From a virus: a DNA stretch of 21,071 bases. Shown piece by piece: positions 2,765-18,017 of the stretch. The translations under genes and the position numbers were made by a program. The stretch lies in IMG/VR virus record IMGVR_UViG_3300035659_000115, positions 1-21,071 of that record; one strand, written 5' to 3'. Position 1 is the stretch's first letter. The number at the start of each line of letters is the position of its first letter. The notes below the pieces were generated by a model, which was not told the origin of the DNA, searched no databases, and saw nothing but the letters and a program-made list of their open reading frames with translations.

Positions 2765-2791
2765 CTCTTCTCCTTTGGTTATTGGTTATCA

Positions 2792-2850
2792 ACCTGCCGG
2801 CAGAAGGTTAAGAGAAAGGAGGAGCCAAACCCTTAACCTTCTTTTGGCAG
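2792..2850. repeat. 22-base inverted repeat, 15-base loop
   Basis: Arms 2792-2813 and 2829-2850 pair over 22 positions with mismatches only in the three bases after CCTGCC and near the loop. The outer CCTGCC/GGCAGG ends and the inner GAAGGTTAAG/CTTAACCTTC block are perfect. It lies in the 126-base gap between the 116-aa gene and the 289-aa gene. There is no clear T-tract, so it is either a weak terminator or RNA-processing hairpin, or a miniature palindromic insertion. Confidence 0.8.
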
Positions 2851-2890
2851 GCGGAAACCTGATTAGGTTTATGTCCTGTCATAATAATTC

Positions 2891-3241
2891 CTATTGAATA
2901 TTTTGAGTATATTTACAAATGGGATTTTCACAAGAAAAGAACGCCTTATATGATTTGCCGGTTTTTTTACTAATTCCCGCTGCCACAAACTTTAACTCTG
3001 TTCCGCATAGCGGGCAAACCTTATTTACGGGAATTGTTGTCTTTTCAGTAGGTTCGATTTCTTCTATCCCAATTTCTTTCAAGACTTCTTTGGCGTCTTT
3101 TTCTACTTCTAATCCCAATTCGTTTTTTAAATCTTTAAAATTCTTCACCGCCTTATCTACTTTATTATCATAGATATTGATTAGAATATCGCCGAACTTT
3201 TGGTTGATTTGGACTTTATATCCCTCGCCCGATTCTTTCAT
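2891..3241 (-). CDS. C-terminal zinc-ribbon protein, 116 aa
   Basis: Start preceded by AAGGAGACAAA, inside the end of the upstream gene, with an ATGA overlap. Residues 1-60 look like an amphipathic helical domain (KVDKAVKNFKDLKNELGLEVEKD). Residues 75-116 hold CPLCG followed about 28 residues later by CENPIC, a C-x2-C/C-x4-C zinc ribbon in the style of topoisomerase or single-strand-binding fingers (G-K-S-Y-K-A-F-F-S-C). A nucleic-acid-binding role is plausible from the ribbon, but no exact family is recognised. Confidence 0.7.
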   Translation of the reverse strand: MKESGEGYKVQINQKFGDILINIYDNKVDKAVKNFKDLKNELGLEVEKDAKEVLKEIGIEEIEPTEKTTIPVNKVCPLCGTELKFVAAGISKKTGKSYKAFFSCENPICKYTQNIQ

Positions 3242-3465
3242 TTTGTCTCCTTGATTAGTTTATTTATTTTTCTTTCTTCTTTCTCAGCTTTTTTAAATCT
3301 TAATTCTTTAGTATCACCGACAATCCAATAATAAATTACGGCAATTAGTCCCGCCAATAATCCTGCGGCGGCTCCCAATATCTCATTTCTTCCCCGATTT
3401 TTAGCCATTACATAACAGATTAAGCCAAACCCTAAATAGATAGTAAAAACTTTAACGCTTTCCAT
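3238..3465 (-). CDS. Small two-helix membrane protein, 75 aa
   Basis: Residues 5-20 (KVFTIYLGFGLICYVM) and 28-50 (EILGAAAGLLAGLIAVIYYWIVG) are hydrophobic membrane segments joined by a short basic turn (AKNRGRN). The C-terminus (ELRFKKAEKEERKINKLIKETK) is a charged helix likely to sit in the cytoplasm. Starts at ATG 3465 with AGGAGGAATA and a one-base overlap (TAATG) with the previous gene, and ends in ATGA with the next. It could be a phage membrane or exclusion-type protein; a holin is possible but it is far from the lysin gene and lacks a diagnostic motif. Confidence 0.65.
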   Translation of the reverse strand: MESVKVFTIYLGFGLICYVMAKNRGRNEILGAAAGLLAGLIAVIYYWIVGDTKELRFKKAEKEERKINKLIKETK

Positions 3466-3683
3466 TATTCCTCCGGTTTTTCTACTTTAAAGCCCCTTTT
3501 TTTTAAGTAATTAGTATAAGCCGCAATCCGAAATCTCTCGGCATTGACTGACCAGTGTTCCTTGTTATAGACCTTTTGTTGTTGTCTTTTTCTGACTTTG
3601 ATGCATTCTTTACAGAATCGGTGATGTCTTCCCATTGAAATAAATTCTTGGCCGCACGTTTCACATCCTCTTTTAGTTTTCAT
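3465..3683 (-). CDS. Small zinc-finger protein, 72 aa
   Basis: The N-terminus carries C-E-T-C-G at residues 7-11 and F-C-K-E-C at 23-27, with two His just before the second pair, and then a strongly basic helix (KVRKRQQQKVYNKEHW). This resembles HNH-like or ribbon fingers of unannotated phage proteins and suggests nucleic acid binding. The start is preceded by GAGGGAAATTAA, which overlaps the stop of the 105-aa gene. No enzymatic motif is visible. Confidence 0.65.
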   Translation of the reverse strand: MKTKRGCETCGQEFISMGRHHRFCKECIKVRKRQQQKVYNKEHWSVNAERFRIAAYTNYLKKRGFKVEKPEE

Positions 3684-4790: not shown

Positions 4791-4946
4791 ATTTCTTTTT
4801 AACCAATCAGCGATATTTCTTTTGGTTTTCTTTTTTAGAGTTGGTTTAAACATAAAATACTCTTGCAATGATAAGAGAATAACGGCAATCAATACTCCAC
4901 CCAAAAAGGTAAGAATCAACCAGTCCCAAGTATTCCAAATGTTCAT
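4776..4946 (-). CDS. Small single-pass membrane protein, 56 aa
   Basis: I use the ATG at 4946 (MNIWNTWDWL) because AAGGAG sits just upstream, within the end of the preceding gene, whose stop is one base away. An in-frame ATG further upstream lacks such a site. Residues 8-32 (DWLILTFLGGVLIAVILLSLQEYF) form one membrane helix, followed by a strongly basic tail (KPTLKKKTKRN) that should face the cytoplasm. Function unknown. It ends the second leftward operon, convergent with the 51-aa ORF. Confidence 0.6.
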   Translation of the reverse strand: MNIWNTWDWLILTFLGGVLIAVILLSLQEYFMFKPTLKKKTKRNIADWLKRNSHLR

Positions 4947-4947
4947 T

Positions 4948-5103
4948 TTACTCCTTATCACTTTGATAATTATAATCATTATTAGCTTCTAAATCTGCTC
5001 TACAATTCTTGCAACAAGGAACTTTAATGCCATTATCATCGGGACTTTCCACGATTAGACAATAACCAGTCGCCCACTCACCGCAAATATAACATTGTTT
5101 CAC
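4948..5103 (-). CDS. Small zinc-ribbon protein with GTG start, 51 aa
   Basis: A GTG at 5101-5103 overlaps the TGA of the upstream gene (GTGA) and has AAGGAAGGTCAA before it. The product (V/M-KQCYICGEWATGYCLIV...) carries CYIC at 4-7, another C at residue 15, and CCKNC at 30-34, a compact four-cysteine zinc ribbon. It shares its stop region with the ribosome binding site of the next gene. Tiny ribbons of this type recur through this operon; the role is unknown. Confidence 0.65.
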   Translation of the reverse strand: MKQCYICGEWATGYCLIVESPDDNGIKVPCCKNCRADLEANNDYNYQSDKE

Positions 5104-8685: not shown

Positions 8686-10089
8686 ATGAAGATAAAATAT
8701 CAAAATGAAAAAACTGGTGAATTGATAAAAGAATTTAATTTACTGCCCGGACAGGAAATATTCCTTAAATCAAAATCAAAATATCTTCTTTATTCTGGGG
8801 GATTCGGCTGTGGAAAAACCCTGGCCCTGTGTTTAAAAGTTTTACAACACTGCACTTTACCAAATAATTATGGTCTGTTGGGTCGTCTGACCTATAATGA
8901 ACTGCAGGATTCGGTCCAAAAAACCTTTTTTGAGATTTGTCCAGCCAGTTTTATTCGCAATTTTAATAAAGCTCAAAGTCGGATTACCTTTACCAATAAT
9001 TCAGAATTGATTTTTCGTCATTTGGATACGATTGCCGAATCGGAAATTCGTTCCTTAAACTTGGGATTCTTTGCCATTGACCAGGCGGAAGAAATCTCGG
9101 AAAATGTCTTTTTGGCTCTGCAAGGAAGATTGAGAAGAGAAGACAGTTTGCGTCAGGGATTTATGACTTGCAATCCAGCAATGACTTGGCTATATAAATA
9201 TTACAAACAAGAACAGGGTCGGGATTATGAGTTAATTGAGGGTTCAACCCTGGATAATCGGAAAAATCTGCCGCAAGACTATATTGAGAGTTTATTAAAA
9301 TATCCCGAATCATGGAAAAGACAATTTGTTTATGGAATTTGGGATGAATCTTTATTATCGGAAAAAGCTTATTTTCCCATTGAATACATTAATGAACAGA
9401 GAGAATTTTCCAAAAAGTCAATTCGCGACTTTGAAGGATTCAGAATTTATCAGGAAAAGCAATTTGACGATGAATATCAGATTGGCGCCGATCCAGCTGA
9501 TTTTGGTCAAGATTATTCGGTAATTATTGTTACTTCCAAAAGACATGGAGATGTGGTGGCGACCTGGAAAGGAAAAATTCCGGCTGATGAATTGTCAAAT
9601 AAAATAAATCAGATTGGCAGAATTTATCGTTTCCCGTTAGTGATTCTGGAAAAAAACGGCATTGGTTTAGCAACTTTAAACAGTTTGAAAAAAATCTATT
9701 CTAATATTTATCAAGAAGAAATATTTGACAATGTCACCAAGAAAAAAAGACAGAAACTTGGTTGGACGACCACTTTCGCCAACAAACCCTTATTGTTCGA
9801 TAATTATTTACGGCTTTTGCGGGAAAATCGGATTAGAATAAATGATGAAAGAATTTTAGATGAAATGAAAACCTTTGTTTGGTCCGATGAGGCGAAAACC
9901 AAGGGTTTGGGCGCGGAAACTGGTTTCCATGACGATATGGTAATGGCTGCGGCTTTGGCTTTTTGGGGGATTAAATCCCGAGTTAAAAGTTCCGAATTAA
10001 TACTGCCGGAACCGCCCAGAAACTCTTTTAAGGGATTACTGACTCAAGTTCAAAACCAAGAAACTCTAGACGATTATATCGGCAATTAA
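8686..10089 (+). CDS. terL: Terminase large subunit, 467 aa
   Basis: Packaging ATPase and nuclease. The Walker A motif is GGFGCGKT at residues 38-45, the Walker B region is LGFFAIDQAEE at 127-137 with D132 and the following E as catalytic carboxylates, and the C-terminal RNase H-like nuclease has D269 (GADPADFG), E322 (VILEKNG) and D416/D417 (FHDDMVMAAALA). All expected parts are present and the length is typical. It cuts concatemeric phage DNA and pumps it into the prohead through the portal encoded downstream. The ribosome binding site GAGGAG lies ten bases before the ATG and overlaps the end of terS. Confidence 0.95.
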   Translation: MKIKYQNEKTGELIKEFNLLPGQEIFLKSKSKYLLYSGGFGCGKTLALCLKVLQHCTLPNNYGLLGRLTYNELQDSVQKTFFEICPASFIRNFNKAQSRITFTNNSELIFRHLDTIAESEIRSLNLGFFAIDQAEEISENVFLALQGRLRREDSLRQGFMTCNPAMTWLYKYYKQEQGRDYELIEGSTLDNRKNLPQDYIESLLKYPESWKRQFVYGIWDESLLSEKAYFPIEYINEQREFSKKSIRDFEGFRIYQEKQFDDEYQIGADPADFGQDYSVIIVTSKRHGDVVATWKGKIPADELSNKINQIGRIYRFPLVILEKNGIGLATLNSLKKIYSNIYQEEIFDNVTKKKRQKLGWTTTFANKPLLFDNYLRLLRENRIRINDERILDEMKTFVWSDEAKTKGLGAETGFHDDMVMAAALAFWGIKSRVKSSELILPEPPRNSFKGLLTQVQNQETLDDYIGN

Positions 10090-10469: not shown

Positions 10470-12209
10470 ATGGCAGAACTTAAAGAAGAAGAAATTAAAA
10501 AAATTATTGACCGAATCCATCTTGGAACTAAGTATTTTGAAAAAGAAAACAAAAAAAAGTTCCAGAGATTTGTCAATTATTTGAAATTAAAACATCGCTG
10601 GTCGGGAAAAGAAACCAGAGACCGAATCACTATTCCGATGATTCACGCTATCATTAGAACCAAACTTCCGGCAATCTGGATGAGAAATCCCAAATATCTG
10701 GTTAAAGCCAAGAAAATGGATTCAATGGAGAATATTAGCAGAGCTCAACAGATTATGAATTATTTTCCTCCAGAGATTGGATTATTTGATGAAGTTAAAA
10801 AATCCATTACCGACTTTCTAACAGTCGGTCGAGGGGTGGTGAAAATTGGTTTTATGTTTAAGACTGCTAAAGATGGCGAAGAACAGAAAATAAAAGTTAA
10901 TCGGTTCTATGTTAAAAGAGTTTCTTATACCAAGGGAGAAATAATTTACAGTCCCGACGCTTCTTGCGGATTAGATGATACCCAGTGGGTTGCCCAATTA
11001 ATGGAAAAACCGCTTTCAGTATTACAAAAAGATAAAAGTCTGAAAAATACTGATAAATTAAAAGAAAATACTGAAACTCAAATTGATGATGAAGATAAAC
11101 ATGATGAAAATCAAGAAGATATTAAAAAGGTTAGATTTTGGGAATATTGGGAAAAGAATGAATATGGGGTTGTGGATAAGTATTTCTGGATAGTTCCCGA
11201 CCAGAATTTAATTATTAAGGGTCCAGAAGAAAATCCTTATGGTCATAAGGAATTTCCTTTTGAAGAATGCAATAATTATGAAGTTCCAGATTATCAATTC
11301 CCGCTGGGTGATATTCAACCCCTGGAAGTTCAACAGGATGAAATGGATAAAATGGAGACTTTACTTTTAGAATATGTTAAAAAGATTATTCCCAAATACA
11401 AGACAAAGGCCGGAGCGTTAACTTCAAAAGGCAAACGGGCTTTAGAAAATCCTGAAATTGGCACAGTGATCGAGATGAAGGGAGATTTGGACCAATTAAC
11501 CTCTTTGGATAATCCAAACTGGTCTCCCGAAGTGACTTATATCACTCGGTCAATTGATGAGAGAATGAATAAAATCTCTGGTATTTCCGAGTATCAGCAA
11601 GCCGCAATGCCCAAAGTCCAACGAACTTTAGGGGAAGCCCAATTAGTTGAAGGCGGGTCTCAGCAACGGTCGGATGAAGCTCGTCAATCGGTGGAAAAAT
11701 TTGCTAAAAAGATTGGCAGAAAATTATTCCAAGTTATTCAGCAAGAATTAGAACCAGGCGACGCTCTTAGAATATCGGGAATTGGCGACCAACAAAGTGA
11801 TTGGTTAAATATTACTTCCAAAGAAGAAATACAGGGTGAATTTGATATAGATGTTGAACCCCACTCAACGACAGTTTTAAATCAAGATGTTATTAAAGAC
11901 CAAGCGTTAATGTTATATAAAACATTAAGAATAGACCCACTGGTTCAAAATCCCAGGGCTTTAATCGCTAGTTTATTGGAAGCGTTTGAGATTAAGGATA
12001 TTGATAAAATACTGGGGCCAGAACTTCCGCCAACTGTTTCAAATCTGCCGCCAGAATCATCGGGACAAATACCGCCTGGTTCTTCTCCACCAGGTTCTCC
12101 ACCAGGTTCTCCACCAGGTTCTCCACCAACAGGAATTCTGCCGACGGCAGCGCCAGCCGGAATGCCGCAAATAACACTACCAACCGGTCCGACGAGTCCA
12201 ACGGGTTAA
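10470..12209 (+). CDS. Portal protein, 579 aa
   Basis: Follows terL in the standard position, with the size and composition of portal proteins. N-terminal region: RFVNYLKLKHRWSGKETRDRI, then a tail rich in W/Y strands (FWEYWEKNEYGVVDKYFWIV). The central helical stem has the pattern QPLEVQQDEMDKMETLLLEYV...SKGKRALENPEIGTVIEM and GISEYQQAAMPKVQRTLGEAQ, typical of portal stem and wing regions. The last 55 residues are a Pro/Gly/Ser-rich disordered tail with repeated S-P-P-G, encoded by 15-base DNA repeats at about 12075-12125. Portals form the dodecameric DNA gate that binds terminase and tail. Superfamily (HK97-type or P22-type) cannot be fixed by eye. The ribosome binding site is weak (GCGGGAAAATA). 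Confidence 0.8.
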   Translation: MAELKEEEIKKIIDRIHLGTKYFEKENKKKFQRFVNYLKLKHRWSGKETRDRITIPMIHAIIRTKLPAIWMRNPKYLVKAKKMDSMENISRAQQIMNYFPPEIGLFDEVKKSITDFLTVGRGVVKIGFMFKTAKDGEEQKIKVNRFYVKRVSYTKGEIIYSPDASCGLDDTQWVAQLMEKPLSVLQKDKSLKNTDKLKENTETQIDDEDKHDENQEDIKKVRFWEYWEKNEYGVVDKYFWIVPDQNLIIKGPEENPYGHKEFPFEECNNYEVPDYQFPLGDIQPLEVQQDEMDKMETLLLEYVKKIIPKYKTKAGALTSKGKRALENPEIGTVIEMKGDLDQLTSLDNPNWSPEVTYITRSIDERMNKISGISEYQQAAMPKVQRTLGEAQLVEGGSQQRSDEARQSVEKFAKKIGRKLFQVIQQELEPGDALRISGIGDQQSDWLNITSKEEIQGEFDIDVEPHSTTVLNQDVIKDQALMLYKTLRIDPLVQNPRALIASLLEAFEIKDIDKILGPELPPTVSNLPPESSGQIPPGSSPPGSPPGSPPGSPPTGILPTAAPAGMPQITLPTGPTSPTG

Positions 12210-13626: not shown

Positions 13627-15900
13627 ATGTCATTAACTTTTAGTATACCAGATTCGGTTCTATCGACTACTCTTGCTAATTATAGAAAAACGATGGAGGA
13701 TAATATTTTTAAAGCAATTCCTCTTTTCTATAAACTTTACCAAGATGGTAATAAGAAAACTTTATCTGGTGGCGAGTCTATAGTTGTGCCATTAATGTAT
13801 GGCACCAACTCAACCGTTGGAGCATATTCTGGTTATGAATCGATTGACGTGACACCTCAAGACGGTAGGACTTCAGCGAAGTATAATTGGAAACAAATTG
13901 CGGCTACTATTGCAATTTCTGGTCGAGAAGAAAGACAAAATTCAGGAGCTGAACGGATAATTAATTTGTTGTCTTCTAAAACCAAACAGACTGAACAATC
14001 AATTAGGGAGTTTATCTCAACAAGAATGTTTACTGCTGGCTCAGATTCGGGACAGCATATTCACGGTCTGCCATCTTTAGTTGCCGCTTCGGGAACCGTT
14101 GGCGGAATTCCTAAAGGAAGTTACAGTTGGTGGCAGTCACAGACAGGAACCGCTGCTTCGTTTGCCGCTAATGGTCTTGATGAGATGAGAAACATCTTTA
14201 ACGATTGTTCTAAACAAGCAGGCACTGATTCACCTAATTTGATAGTAACTACTCAAACTGAATTTGAAAGATACGAAAAAGTCTTACAACCGCAGGAAAG
14301 ATTTAATGATTCTAAAATGGCTGATGGTGGATTAAATTTTAGTCCCTTGATGGAAGTTATATGACCAAAAAAGAACAACTATTACGAGCTTACTTAGCGG
14401 GAGTATTAGATGGTGAGGGGTGTATAAATATAAACCAGATGAAAAGATTGGCAAGAAATGGAAATATTTATCACACTCTATATGTAACAGTAGGTACAAC
14501 AGATAATATCTTACCTCAACTTTTCCATAAAACTTTTGGCGGTTCTCTGATGACAAGAATGGTTAAGGGATATGATAAGCCAAGATATATTTGGCAAGTA
14601 GCTGCTCGTAAAGCAAAAAAAGTTCTTCTCGAATTATTACCTTACTTAAAACTTAAAAAAGAACAAGCAGAGTTAGCAATAGAATTTGCTACTGAGAAAC
14701 AGAAATCACCTAAATTGTGGGATAGAGAAAAAAATGGAAATTTTAAGGGAGTAGGGTTATCTAAAGAACGGATAAAGTTGTACTATCAATATTGGTTGAA
14801 AATGAAACAACTTCATCAAGCAAATCGCTCGAATTCGGGGAAAGCCTGTAATGGTAATCCCGAGCTAAGCCCTTTAAGGGAAAGTGTAACGACTAATGCG
14901 GGCGATACCCTAATGGGTAATGAGATAGTCTGAACTTACGAGGAATAAAAACCGTAAGATTAACATAATGTTCAAAACTTACTTTTCAAAGCCGTTCCAA
15001 TGGTTTGGGATCCGTCCGCAACTCCAGGAAAAGTCTATTTCCTAAATACTAATTATCTTAACTGGACAGTTCATCGAGATGCTGATTTTACAACTACTGA
15101 TTTTGTCCGACCTGAGAATTTGACGAAAGTCTTGGTTCTCTTTAAATCTCTTCTAATTAATTTGCGAAAGTCCTTCAGCTTTGTTATACTGAAATTACAG
15201 GAGGCAAAAAAATGTATAACAAAAACAATGGACAACGCAGTGCAAGTCTGGAAAAAAATCTCATTTGCTACCTCGCTGGTATAATTGACGGCGAGGGTTA
15301 TGTAACAATTAAAAGGTCGTACCTTAAAAGAAAATCTTCAAAGAAAACATACCAATATTATGTTTATACCCCAGTTATCGCAATTGCTATGACTTCTCAG
15401 GATTTTATGGTTTGGTTAAAAAAGACAATTCCTTGTAATGGTAGATTATGGGTAAGAAAGTTTAAAAATCCGAATTGGCGAGACTCTTACACAGTTAGTT
15501 TCCATAATAGAAACGCAATTGAATTAGCTCAATTACTCCTACCATATTCAAGGATTAAAAAAGAACAATTAAAAATTCTGGCAGAATATCCAATTGGCGG
15601 GGCAAGAACTTTAACTACTCCCCAAAGGGAAAAACTATATTGGCAAATGAGAGAAGAAAATTTAAAATCCAGACAGCAGCAGAGACTAAGCGAAGAGACT
15701 TTGAGACATTTAAACTCAAAGATGCAATAGTCCGAACTACCTTAAATGATAAATAGGTAGAACAAGGCAGAAATGACCTTGTCCTCGAAAGAGAGTAACA
15801 AGCATCGCAAGATGCTCGGGTGGCTCAAATATTAATAATGGGTGAATTGGTCGCTTCTAATTGCGCCAAACAGGGTGTATTAACCATTACCGCCGCTTAA
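13627..15900 (+). CDS. Major capsid protein, three exons (315 aa after splicing)
   Basis: Exons: 13627-14332, 14971-15119 and 15808-15900. Together they are 948 bases and give a 315-aa protein without internal stops. Start after TTAGGAGTATAA. The first exon (MSLTFSIPDSVLSTTLANYR...) shows a capsid-type N-arm and a ...AYSGYESIDVTPQDG segment; the joined C-terminal part reads GGF-QNLLFKAVPMVWDP, YFLNTNYLNWTVH, DFVRPEN-QDARVAQILIMGEL and ends VLTITAA. The motif order F-K-x-V-P-x-V-W-D, Y-F-L-N-T-x-Y-L and D-A-R-V-A-Q-I is typical of a family of phage major capsid proteins with an HK97-like fold. Exon 1 breaks inside codon 236 and exon 2 ends after codon 285. Unspliced RNA would give a 245-aa truncated product ending at 14364, so splicing is required for an intact shell. 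Confidence 0.85.
14333..14970 (+). mobile_element. Group I intron 1 in the capsid gene, 638 bases
   Basis: The 5' exon ends in GGAT and pairs with GTCC at 14342-14345 inside the intron, giving P1 with the required U-G at the splice site. The last intron base is G (14970). Core elements near the 3' end: P7 GACTA 14891-14895 with TAGTC 14926-14930; P8 TACCC 14906-14910 with GGGTA 14915-14919; P9 CTTACG 14935-14940 with CGTAAG 14953-14958. Removing it restores the frame GGF-QNLLFKAVP. It carries a LAGLIDADG gene (14361-14933) for homing. Subgroup not assigned. Confidence 0.8.
14361..14933 (+). CDS. LAGLIDADG homing endonuclease in intron 1, 190 aa
   Basis: One LAGLIDADG motif at residues 11-20 (YLAGVLDGEG), with catalytic-type D17 and E19, followed by beta strands and LLPYLKLKKEQAELAIEF near the middle. 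One copy of the motif implies a homodimer. Its ATG overlaps the TGA of the capsid frame read into the intron (ATGA), with GGAAG just upstream, so translation of unspliced RNA could feed into it. The last 35 or so residues (from about RSNSGKACNG to GNEIV) are encoded by the ribozyme core, and the stop TGA follows P7. It would cut intronless capsid genes to spread the intron. Related to the endonuclease in intron 2. Confidence 0.85.
   Translation: MTKKEQLLRAYLAGVLDGEGCININQMKRLARNGNIYHTLYVTVGTTDNILPQLFHKTFGGSLMTRMVKGYDKPRYIWQVAARKAKKVLLELLPYLKLKKEQAELAIEFATEKQKSPKLWDREKNGNFKGVGLSKERIKLYYQYWLKMKQLHQANRSNSGKACNGNPELSPLRESVTTNAGDTLMGNEIV
15162..15190 (+). promoter_or_regulatory. Possible promoter inside intron 2
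   Basis: TTGCGA (15162-15167), 17-base spacer, TATACT (15185-15190), about 22 bases before the homing endonuclease start. Four of six bases match at -35 and five of six at -10. It could express the endonuclease independently of capsid transcription. Confidence 0.35.
15212..15730 (+). CDS. LAGLIDADG homing endonuclease in intron 2, 172 aa
   Basis: Start after ACAGGAGGCAAAAAA, one of the strongest ribosome binding sites in the window. The LAGLIDADG motif YLAGIIDGEG is at residues 20-29 (D26, E28), followed by VTIKRSYLKRK and a LLLPYSRIKKEQLKILAEY segment that matches LLPYLKLKKEQAELAIEF of the intron 1 enzyme; the two are paralogues. It is a single-motif, probably dimeric enzyme. Its stop codon TAG (15728-15730) lies exactly on the 3' strand of the P7 stem, and its last 15 or so codons lie in the ribozyme core, so protein and RNA share sequence. 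Confidence 0.85.
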   Translation: MYNKNNGQRSASLEKNLICYLAGIIDGEGYVTIKRSYLKRKSSKKTYQYYVYTPVIAIAMTSQDFMVWLKKTIPCNGRLWVRKFKNPNWRDSYTVSFHNRNAIELAQLLLPYSRIKKEQLKILAEYPIGGARTLTTPQREKLYWQMREENLKSRQQQRLSEETLRHLNSKMQ

Positions 15901-16442: not shown

Positions 16443-16498
16443 CTCGACTATTCCTCCGAGATATTCTTTTGAGATTTATCTCGGAGTGAATAGCTGAG
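16443..16498 (+). promoter_or_regulatory. Hairpin before first 157-aa gene
   Basis: CTC-GA-CTATTC-CTCCGAG pairs with CTCGGAG-T-GAATAG-CT-GAG (16443-16460 with 16480-16498), a long stem. It is followed by the ribosome binding site GAAAGGAAAAAT. It has the same outer frame (CTCGA ... CTGA) as the hairpins at 16994 and 17509. Confidence 0.65.
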
Positions 16499-16512
16499 TG
16501 GAAAGGAAAAAT

Positions 16513-16986
16513 ATGCAAATTCAAAAAGTAAATCGCACAGACGTTGAAAAGGTTTATGTGGTGGTAAAAAATGTTTCTGCCACTGTTGCCACAGCTGGTT
16601 CGGCTATGAGGTATCGCGGCACATTGGGAGTAGGTGAAGTGGTATCAGCCGATGGTTCACAGGCGCAACTTTTAACCAATAAAGGTTGTATGCCTGGATT
16701 GGTTGGTATTGCTATTGAAGATATTGCTTCCAATGGTTATGGTCGAGTTCAGACTTGGGGATATAATGCGACTGCCCTATATTCGTTTGAAGCGGATAAA
16801 ACTTGCGGAATTGTTTCAATTTCCGAATCTTATTTGCAGCCAGGCGGTGCGGCCGGAACACTAACCTCGGGTTTAGGTCCAGAAGTGGGAATGTTGTCAA
16901 CTAATTTCAAGTATATCCAAGCGCTTTCGACAGTCAATATTTCTGGCGGCGCTCCTTATGGTCCTGTTTTCATCAGGGCTTTATAA
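16513..16986 (+). CDS. Tandem virion protein copy 1, 157 aa
   Basis: I take the ATG at 16513 (MQIQKVNRTDVEKVYVVVKN) because the ribosome binding site AAAGG and the N-terminus agree with the two later copies; five extra codons upstream are not in those copies. The protein is beta-rich with V-Y-V-V-V-K-N-V-S-x-T-V-A-T-A-G-S-A-M-R-Y, a G-I-A-x-E-D-I-A centre, G-Y-G-R-V-Q-T-W-G-Y, and an end S-T-V-N-I-S-G-G-A-P. This pattern suggests a small shell-like decoration or tail-adjacent domain, but I recognise no named family. The triplet of such genes may be decoration or spike proteins. Confidence 0.75.
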   Translation: MQIQKVNRTDVEKVYVVVKNVSATVATAGSAMRYRGTLGVGEVVSADGSQAQLLTNKGCMPGLVGIAIEDIASNGYGRVQTWGYNATALYSFEADKTCGIVSISESYLQPGGAAGTLTSGLGPEVGMLSTNFKYIQALSTVNISGGAPYGPVFIRAL

Positions 16987-16993
16987 TTCTCGA

Positions 16994-17010
16994 CCCCTAG
17001 CAATTAGGGG
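16994..17010 (+). promoter_or_regulatory. Hairpin before second 157-aa gene
   Basis: CCCCTA (16994-16999) pairs with TAGGGG (17005-17010) around GCAAT. It lies inside the frame TTCTCGA...CTGAAAGGAAAATATGCA shared with the next copy. Stem sequence differs from its neighbours but the pairing is kept. Confidence 0.65.
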
Positions 17011-17023
17011 CTGAAAGGAAAAT

Positions 17024-17497
17024 ATGCAGATTCAACGAATAAATAGAACTGAAGCGGAAAAGGTTTACATTGTGGTAAAAAATGTTTCAGGTGCTATCGC
17101 AACTGCTGGTTCGGCTATGAGATTTGTCGGCACAAATGCTAAATCTGAAATAGCTTCAACCGATGGTATACAGGCTGTTTTGTTGACAGCAATAAATCAG
17201 ATGGTTGGGCTTGCTGGTATTGCGGTAGAGGATATCGCTGATAATAGTTACGGAAGAGTTCAAGCGTGGGGTTATTGTAATACCGCCTTGTTTTCGTTCC
17301 AAGCCGACAAAACTTGTGGAGTAGTGACAATTTCAGAAACCTACCTAAGACCAGGTGGTGCTGCTGGCACTTTGACTTCAGGATTGGGTCCAGAAGCAGC
17401 GATGAAATCTACCAACTACAAGTATATCCAGAATATGTCGACGGTTAATATCTCTGGTGGTGCTCCTTCTGGGGCGGTATTTGTGAGAGCTTTATAA
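17024..17497 (+). CDS. Tandem virion protein copy 2, 157 aa
   Basis: Same length and domain pattern as the copies before and after: MQIQRINRTEAEKVYIVVKN, G-I-A-V-E-D-I-A, G-R-V-Q-A-W-G-Y, P-G-G-A-A-G-T-L-T-S and V-N-I-S-G-G-A-P. Its N-terminal 13 residues are identical to those of copy 3, while the middle (NAKSEIASTDGIQAVLL) is its own. It retains a Cys pair region (TCGVV) like copy 1 that copy 3 has as TVGVA. Such differences hint at specialised surface roles. Confidence 0.75.
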   Translation: MQIQRINRTEAEKVYIVVKNVSGAIATAGSAMRFVGTNAKSEIASTDGIQAVLLTAINQMVGLAGIAVEDIADNSYGRVQAWGYCNTALFSFQADKTCGVVTISETYLRPGGAAGTLTSGLGPEAAMKSTNYKYIQNMSTVNISGGAPSGAVFVRAL

Positions 17498-17508
17498 GTA
17501 ATTCTCGA

Positions 17509-17529
17509 CTTCTCCCATTTGGTGAGGAG
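17509..17529 (+). promoter_or_regulatory. Hairpin before third 157-aa gene
   Basis: CTTCTC (17509-17514) pairs with GAGGAG (17524-17529) with one T-G pair, extended by CC/GG around ATTT. It lies in the same ATTCTCGA...CTGAAAGGAAAA frame as at 16994. Confidence 0.6.
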
Positions 17530-17543
17530 CTGAAAGGAAAAAT

Positions 17544-18017
17544 ATGCAAATTCAACGAATAAATAGAACTGAAGCGGAAAAAGTTTTTGTTGTGGTTAGA
17601 AATGTTAGTGGAACTGTTGCCACAGCCGGTTCTGCCATGAGGTATGTTGGAGCATTGGGTGCAGCAGAAGTTGCTTCAACTGACGGTGTAAATGCCTATT
17701 TGCTTACCGCAGTTGCTGAAATGCCAGGACTTGCAGGAATTGCTGTAGAAGATATTGCGGTGAATGGCTATGGAAGAGTTCAGGCTTGGGGATATCATCC
17801 AACTGCTTTGTTCTCGTTTGAGGCTGACAAAACCGTTGGTGTTGCTACAGTAACCGAGACTTTCTTACAGCCAGGCGGAGCAGCAGGAACGCTTACATCC
17901 GCTCTTGACCCAGCAGCAGCGATGCGTTCAACAAACTTCAAATATATTCAAAATCTCTCTACAGTCAATATTTCTGGTGGCGCTCCATCGGGAGCGGTAT
18001 TTGTTAGAGCGCTTTAA
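17544..18017 (+). CDS. Tandem virion protein copy 3, 157 aa
   Basis: Third tandem copy, starting MQIQRINRTEAEKVFVVVRN after AAAGGAAAAAT and ending ..NISGGAPSGAVFVRAL, as in copy 2. All three copies have 157 residues with no gaps, so the duplication is either recent or under strong structural constraint. Copies share the strand pattern SGTVATAGSAMRY and EDIA-x-N-G/S-Y-G-R-V-Q-x-W-G-Y. Function as for copy 1: beta-rich virion component, probably surface or decoration. Confidence 0.75.
   Translation: MQIQRINRTEAEKVFVVVRNVSGTVATAGSAMRYVGALGAAEVASTDGVNAYLLTAVAEMPGLAGIAVEDIAVNGYGRVQAWGYHPTALFSFEADKTVGVATVTETFLQPGGAAGTLTSALDPAAAMRSTNFKYIQNLSTVNISGGAPSGAVFVRAL

Follow-up and report, generated by a model that had tools for sequence, protein, structure and literature searches.

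Introns in phage capsid genes and phage genes carrying several introns are already known from published work. In LittleE, a Cluster J mycobacteriophage, the major capsid gene contains one likely group I intron, the splicing of which was proved by RT-PCR and protein sequence (PMC3706429), and a group I intron in the capsid subunit gene of Tuc2009 is mentioned in the same paper. Neighboring introns with exon skipping have been described in Twort orf142 and in a SIOphi gene, as recounted in PMC11878797, and Jug phages reach a mean of 18.5 introns per genome, with some of their terL genes in two to three pieces (PMC12363816). Self-splicing group I introns and homing-endonuclease genes are well-known mobile DNA; what is uncommon is a pair of them separated by 149 bases within a major capsid gene, and in our limited literature search no published example of two LAGLIDADG introns in one major capsid gene emerged.

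The window analyzed here comprises an entire IMG/VR virus record, 21,071 bases long, from an uncultivated phage. We infer from its sequence, with a probability of about 0.93, that the capsid gene has acquired two mobile group I introns independently of each other; both are predicted to be self-splicing, and each to encode a homing endonuclease (Table 1). The head genes stand in their usual order, with the terminase large subunit at 8686-10089, the portal at 10470-12209, and the split gene at 13627-15900. Removal of both introns leaves 948 nt in a single open frame (315 codons plus stop), which bears out the exon boundaries and lengths given in the initial annotation. Without splicing, the capsid frame stops after 245 codons, and a gene finder that ignores splicing would call a 245-aa, truncated version of the capsid protein. 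The spliced protein matches the profile of phrog_9953, a major head protein, over residues 10-311 (E 4.7e-65), and a profile built from it and seven homologues matches the solved capsid proteins 7f38 (E 2.8e-7) and 6j3q (E 1.9e-5). An intein reading of both insertions was dropped, because they hold stops in the capsid frame. Elsewhere in the window, three tandem similar proteins of ~157 aa each are encoded downstream of the capsid gene (16498-18017, plus strand), the first without a Pfam match and the first two without a PHROGs match; on the minus strand, two highly repetitive proteins (647-1621 and 1895-2764) show VYGDAEVSGNA-type repeats and AAYAAYAA-type runs, with other frames open too.

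Table 1. Features of the split capsid gene, in window coordinates
Feature	Position	Strand	Details and basis
Capsid exon 1	13627-14332	+	706 nt; open frame, phrog_9953 match of spliced product
Intron 1 P1	14329-14345	+	GGAU 14329-14332 with GUCC 14342-14345; U.G at splice site
Group I intron 1	14333-14970	+	638 nt; Rfam RF00028, terminal bases, absence from intronless homologues
LAGLIDADG homing endonuclease gene 1	14361-14933	+	Pfam PF00961 E 9e-4 (below curated cut-off); I-MsoI PDB profile match
Intron 1 core	14824-14958	+	P3 14824-14830/14900-14906, P4 14834-14839/14859-14864
Intron 1 P7, P8, P9		+	P7 14891-14895/14926-14930, P8 14907-14918, P9 14935-14940/14953-14958
Capsid exon 2	14971-15119	+	149 nt; spliced frame, alignment to intronless L001
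Intron 2 P1	15114-15140	+	GAGAAU 15114-15119 with GUUCUC 15135-15140
Group I intron 2	15120-15807	+	688 nt; P1/P10 and core shuffle tests
Intron 2 P10	15129-15134 with 15808-15813	+	GUCUUG with 3' exon CAAGAU
Intron 2 core, 5' half	15147-15251	+	P3 15147-15153, P4 15162-15166/15236-15240, J4/5 AAA 15167-15169, P5 15170-15173/15230-15233, J5/4 AA 15234-15235, P6/P6a 15241-15251
LAGLIDADG homing endonuclease gene 2	15212-15730	+	phrog_5046 E 8e-17; PDB profile match I-MsoI, I-CreI
Intron 2 core, 3' half	15669-15760	+	P6a' CCAGAC from 15669, P7 15684-15688/15728-15732, P3' 15692-15698, P8 15699-15705/15715-15721, P9 15737-15742/15755-15760
Capsid exon 3	15808-15900	+	93 nt including stop codon; spliced frame, L001 alignment

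A search for an intronless homologue of the 315-aa protein recovered L001, which is 69% identical to it over the full length and gap-free at both joints; the alignment of the L001 DNA with the spliced sequence holds one internal 3-base gap, distant from both joints. All 169 full-length intronless homologues are free of gaps and stops for about five residues around joint 1, as are 127/169 at joint 2; the remaining 42 have indels or a stop near joint 2. The best 80 capsid matches all run unbroken from residues 4-11 to 310-315, in a ranking that favors unbroken genes. Intron 1 splits codon 236 between the first and second bases (T, then TC), placing the joint inside F, and intron 2 lies between codons 285 and 286 (PEN, then QDA). 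The joints had been annotated as F-QNLLFKAVP and PEN-QDARVAQ, of which the second is exact and the first slightly off. The two joints lie within the conserved motifs GF and NQDA, respectively, and an eight-sequence alignment shows no variation at G235, F236, D287, or A288; therefore, both introns occupy conserved codons, as homing predicts. The contigs of two related capsid genes (L245 and L247) had been assigned to archaeal bins (MAGs of Nitrososphaeraceae and Euryarchaeota); wrong binning or an origin from archaeal viruses may account for this.

At both introns, U is the last base of the 5' exon and G that of the intron, and P1 presents a U.G pair at the 5' splice site; P7 is GACUA/UAGUC in both, and both have P8 and P9 hairpins. 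All of these elements had been named in the initial annotation and were located in both introns, and P3-P6 of intron 2, which it had missed, were found in our follow-up. A covariance-model search of both intervals was positive for one of them: intron 1 matched Rfam RF00028 (Intron_gpI) with 59 bits at 14775-14952, above the gathering score of 50, whereas intron 2 gave no group I match up to E 10, and the same model also misses the introns of two related capsid genes (L102 and L047). Approximately 420 bases of endonuclease gene 2 sit in the P6a loop of intron 2, which is probably why Rfam misses it; Rfam alone overlooks the second intron. The P1 of intron 1 has just 4 bp and its P10 is weak, the two pairing together at 9/12 positions; thus, this splice site is placed by homology and by the terminal G, not by P10.

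For intron 2, splice sites were set beforehand from homology, and P1 and P10 each pair at 6/6 positions, a total of 12/12 that was reached in 0/5000 dinucleotide shuffles. Its core was assembled by hand, and P3 (UCUCUUC/GAAGAGA), P4 (UUGCG/CGCAG), J4/5, P5 (GUCC/GGAC), J5/4, P6 (UGC/GCA, with P6a GUCUGG/CCAGAC), P7, P8 (CUUUGAG/CUCAAAG), and P9 (CUACCU/AGGUAG) were all found in order. This P3 replaced a first candidate, CUUCAGCUU/AAGCGAAG, that left no space for P4-P6. A descriptor of the core (P3, P4, J4/5, P5, J5/4, P7, and P8), written post hoc after the sequence had been inspected, gave one match in the intron, matches in 2/400 shuffles, and 0 in 12 kb of other window sequence. A search with an IGS consensus pattern gave no match. 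The minimum-energy fold of the intron 2 5' end was no better than those of shuffles, as expected, because this end is half of a pseudoknotted core. That one or both introns are splicing-inactive, the record representing a capsid gene that is defective or was invaded recently, is very unlikely: the failure of Rfam to recognize intron 2 and the short P1 and weak P10 of intron 1 would fit such a state, but the core helices are all intact in both introns, the P1/P10 pairing of intron 2 is perfect, both endonuclease frames and the three exons are open, and a dead intron in the capsid gene would presumably be lethal to the phage. The original proposal of a major capsid gene with two LAGLIDADG-bearing group I introns, presumably active, is the reading that we retain, with the spliced-frame homology, the match to a major head protein, the Rfam match of intron 1, the hand-found core of intron 2, the LAGLIDADG assignment, and the order of the neighboring terminase and portal genes in its support.

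Each of the two intron-borne ORFs has one LAGLIDADG motif (LAGVLDGEG and LAGIIDGEG, respectively), and a joint profile of both proteins matches I-MsoI (E 5e-10), I-CvuI (E 4e-5), and I-CreI (E 2e-3) in the PDB, in agreement with the family assigned initially; their LAGLIDADG Pfam scores lie under the curated cut-offs. The PHROGs label for the family is "HNH endonuclease," but the PDB and Pfam matches indicate LAGLIDADG. I-CreI, which has one motif, acts as a homodimer, and the single motif per protein therefore leads us to expect homodimers for both predicted endonucleases. Single-sequence IMG/VR searches with each endonuclease returned no relatives; alignment-based searches recovered them. 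Gene 1 starts after P1, and its 3' part passes through the intron 1 core; gene 2 begins within the P5 loop, where AGGAGG precedes its start codon, continues across P6, and terminates at a TAG inside the P7 3' strand. This difference in gene placement, together with the low identity of the two proteins (28%), suggests that the introns were acquired separately.

We propose that each intron would fold as a ribozyme and leave the capsid mRNA by guanosine-initiated transesterification, with the exons being joined to encode the 315-aa capsid protein. Each LAGLIDADG homodimer could cut the intronless capsid genes of co-infecting relatives, leading to the intron being copied in, and insertion in conserved codons would keep target sites available. 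Read-through of exon 1 stops at TGA 14362-14364, which overlaps the ATG of gene 1 (ATGA, 14361-14364), suggesting translational coupling of the two. Read-through of exon 2 extends ~55 codons into intron 2, to 15284, over P1, P3, P4, P5, and the P6 5' strand. The cores would be disturbed by ribosomes translating either endonuclease gene or reading on from exon 2, so that splicing and endonuclease synthesis should be mutually exclusive on a given RNA. The introns might sometimes be spliced as one unit, with the 5' site of intron 1 joined to the 3' site of intron 2; the 149-nt exon would then be skipped and capsid output thereby tuned. Such skipping between neighboring group I introns is on record for the Twort and SIOphi genes (PMC11878797), and the middle exon is short; we nevertheless consider it unlikely here, as skipping would shift the frame and yield a 247-codon truncated capsid protein, and intron 2 has a P10 that matches its own IGS, with no sign of other-site use. 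Separate removal of the two introns is our preferred reading.

Two introns, of 667 and 709 nt, also interrupt a related capsid gene on an independent contig, IMG/VR 3300004481_000027 (L137/L188). Like the window, this gene carries a LAGLIDADG gene in each intron, and its frame is restored over both joints. Its sites differ, lying between T and P at window residues 76/77 and between R and P at 282/283, the second being 9 nt from the intron 2 site, and its second endonuclease, unlike those of the window, is antisense. The initial annotation had called two introns this close together in a capsid gene unusual, which is partly right, given this second case and the closely spaced phage introns already published (PMC11878797). 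One L137 intron matches Rfam with 30.7 bits (E 2e-4), under the cut-off. In the second (2779-3487, minus strand), P1 (GUCCGU/GCGGAC) and P10 (CCAGAA/UUUUGG) pair fully by eye, and its last base would, by homology and P10, be A instead of the usual terminal G. Exon 1 of the same gene contains an in-frame TAG and ~45 extra bases between the near-repeats ATTTAT/ATCTAT (~4915-4980, minus strand), for which a translational bypass element, a small insertion, and a sequencing error are all conceivable explanations.

It is scarcely credible that two unrelated ORFs were placed in the capsid gene by chance or misassembly. That the record is an IMG/VR virus contig would leave room for such an origin, but splice-site pairing and joint homology coincide at exact coordinates, and the same type of arrangement occurs in L137. 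Further relatives were also found to be interrupted, one near residue 25 with a LAGLIDADG gene inside (L102) and one near residue 88 with an HNH-like gene inside (L047); another candidate, L092, was ruled out, its capsid gene being intact. Some of these relatives were found via their endonucleases, and no intron frequency is therefore derivable. As judged from these genes, the capsid family is repeatedly invaded by introns, a single family being broken at six different sites in four phages. A more far-reaching idea, which we regard as doubtful, is that introns with different endonucleases contend for almost neighboring sites in this family, making it a hot spot, and that coupling of splicing to ribosome traffic, through the read-through of exons 1 and 2 described above, imposes an order on the two splicing events and regulates capsid output.

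Compared with the described systems, the window resembles LittleE in the interruption of a major capsid gene, an exon ending in U, an intron ending in G, and a LAGLIDADG gene inside (PMC3706429). LittleE differs in having a single intron and an antisense endonuclease, and the comparison between the two covers intron features. Tuc2009, a lactococcal phage, likewise has a single intron, as far as its mention in that paper goes. Twort orf142 is similar in that several group I introns reside in one phage structural gene (Landthaler and Shub 1999, via PMC11878797); in contrast to the window, it is, by that secondary account, a tail tube gene with three introns, in which exon skipping was seen. With the window, the few phage capsid-gene introns known so far are joined by a clear double-intron case.
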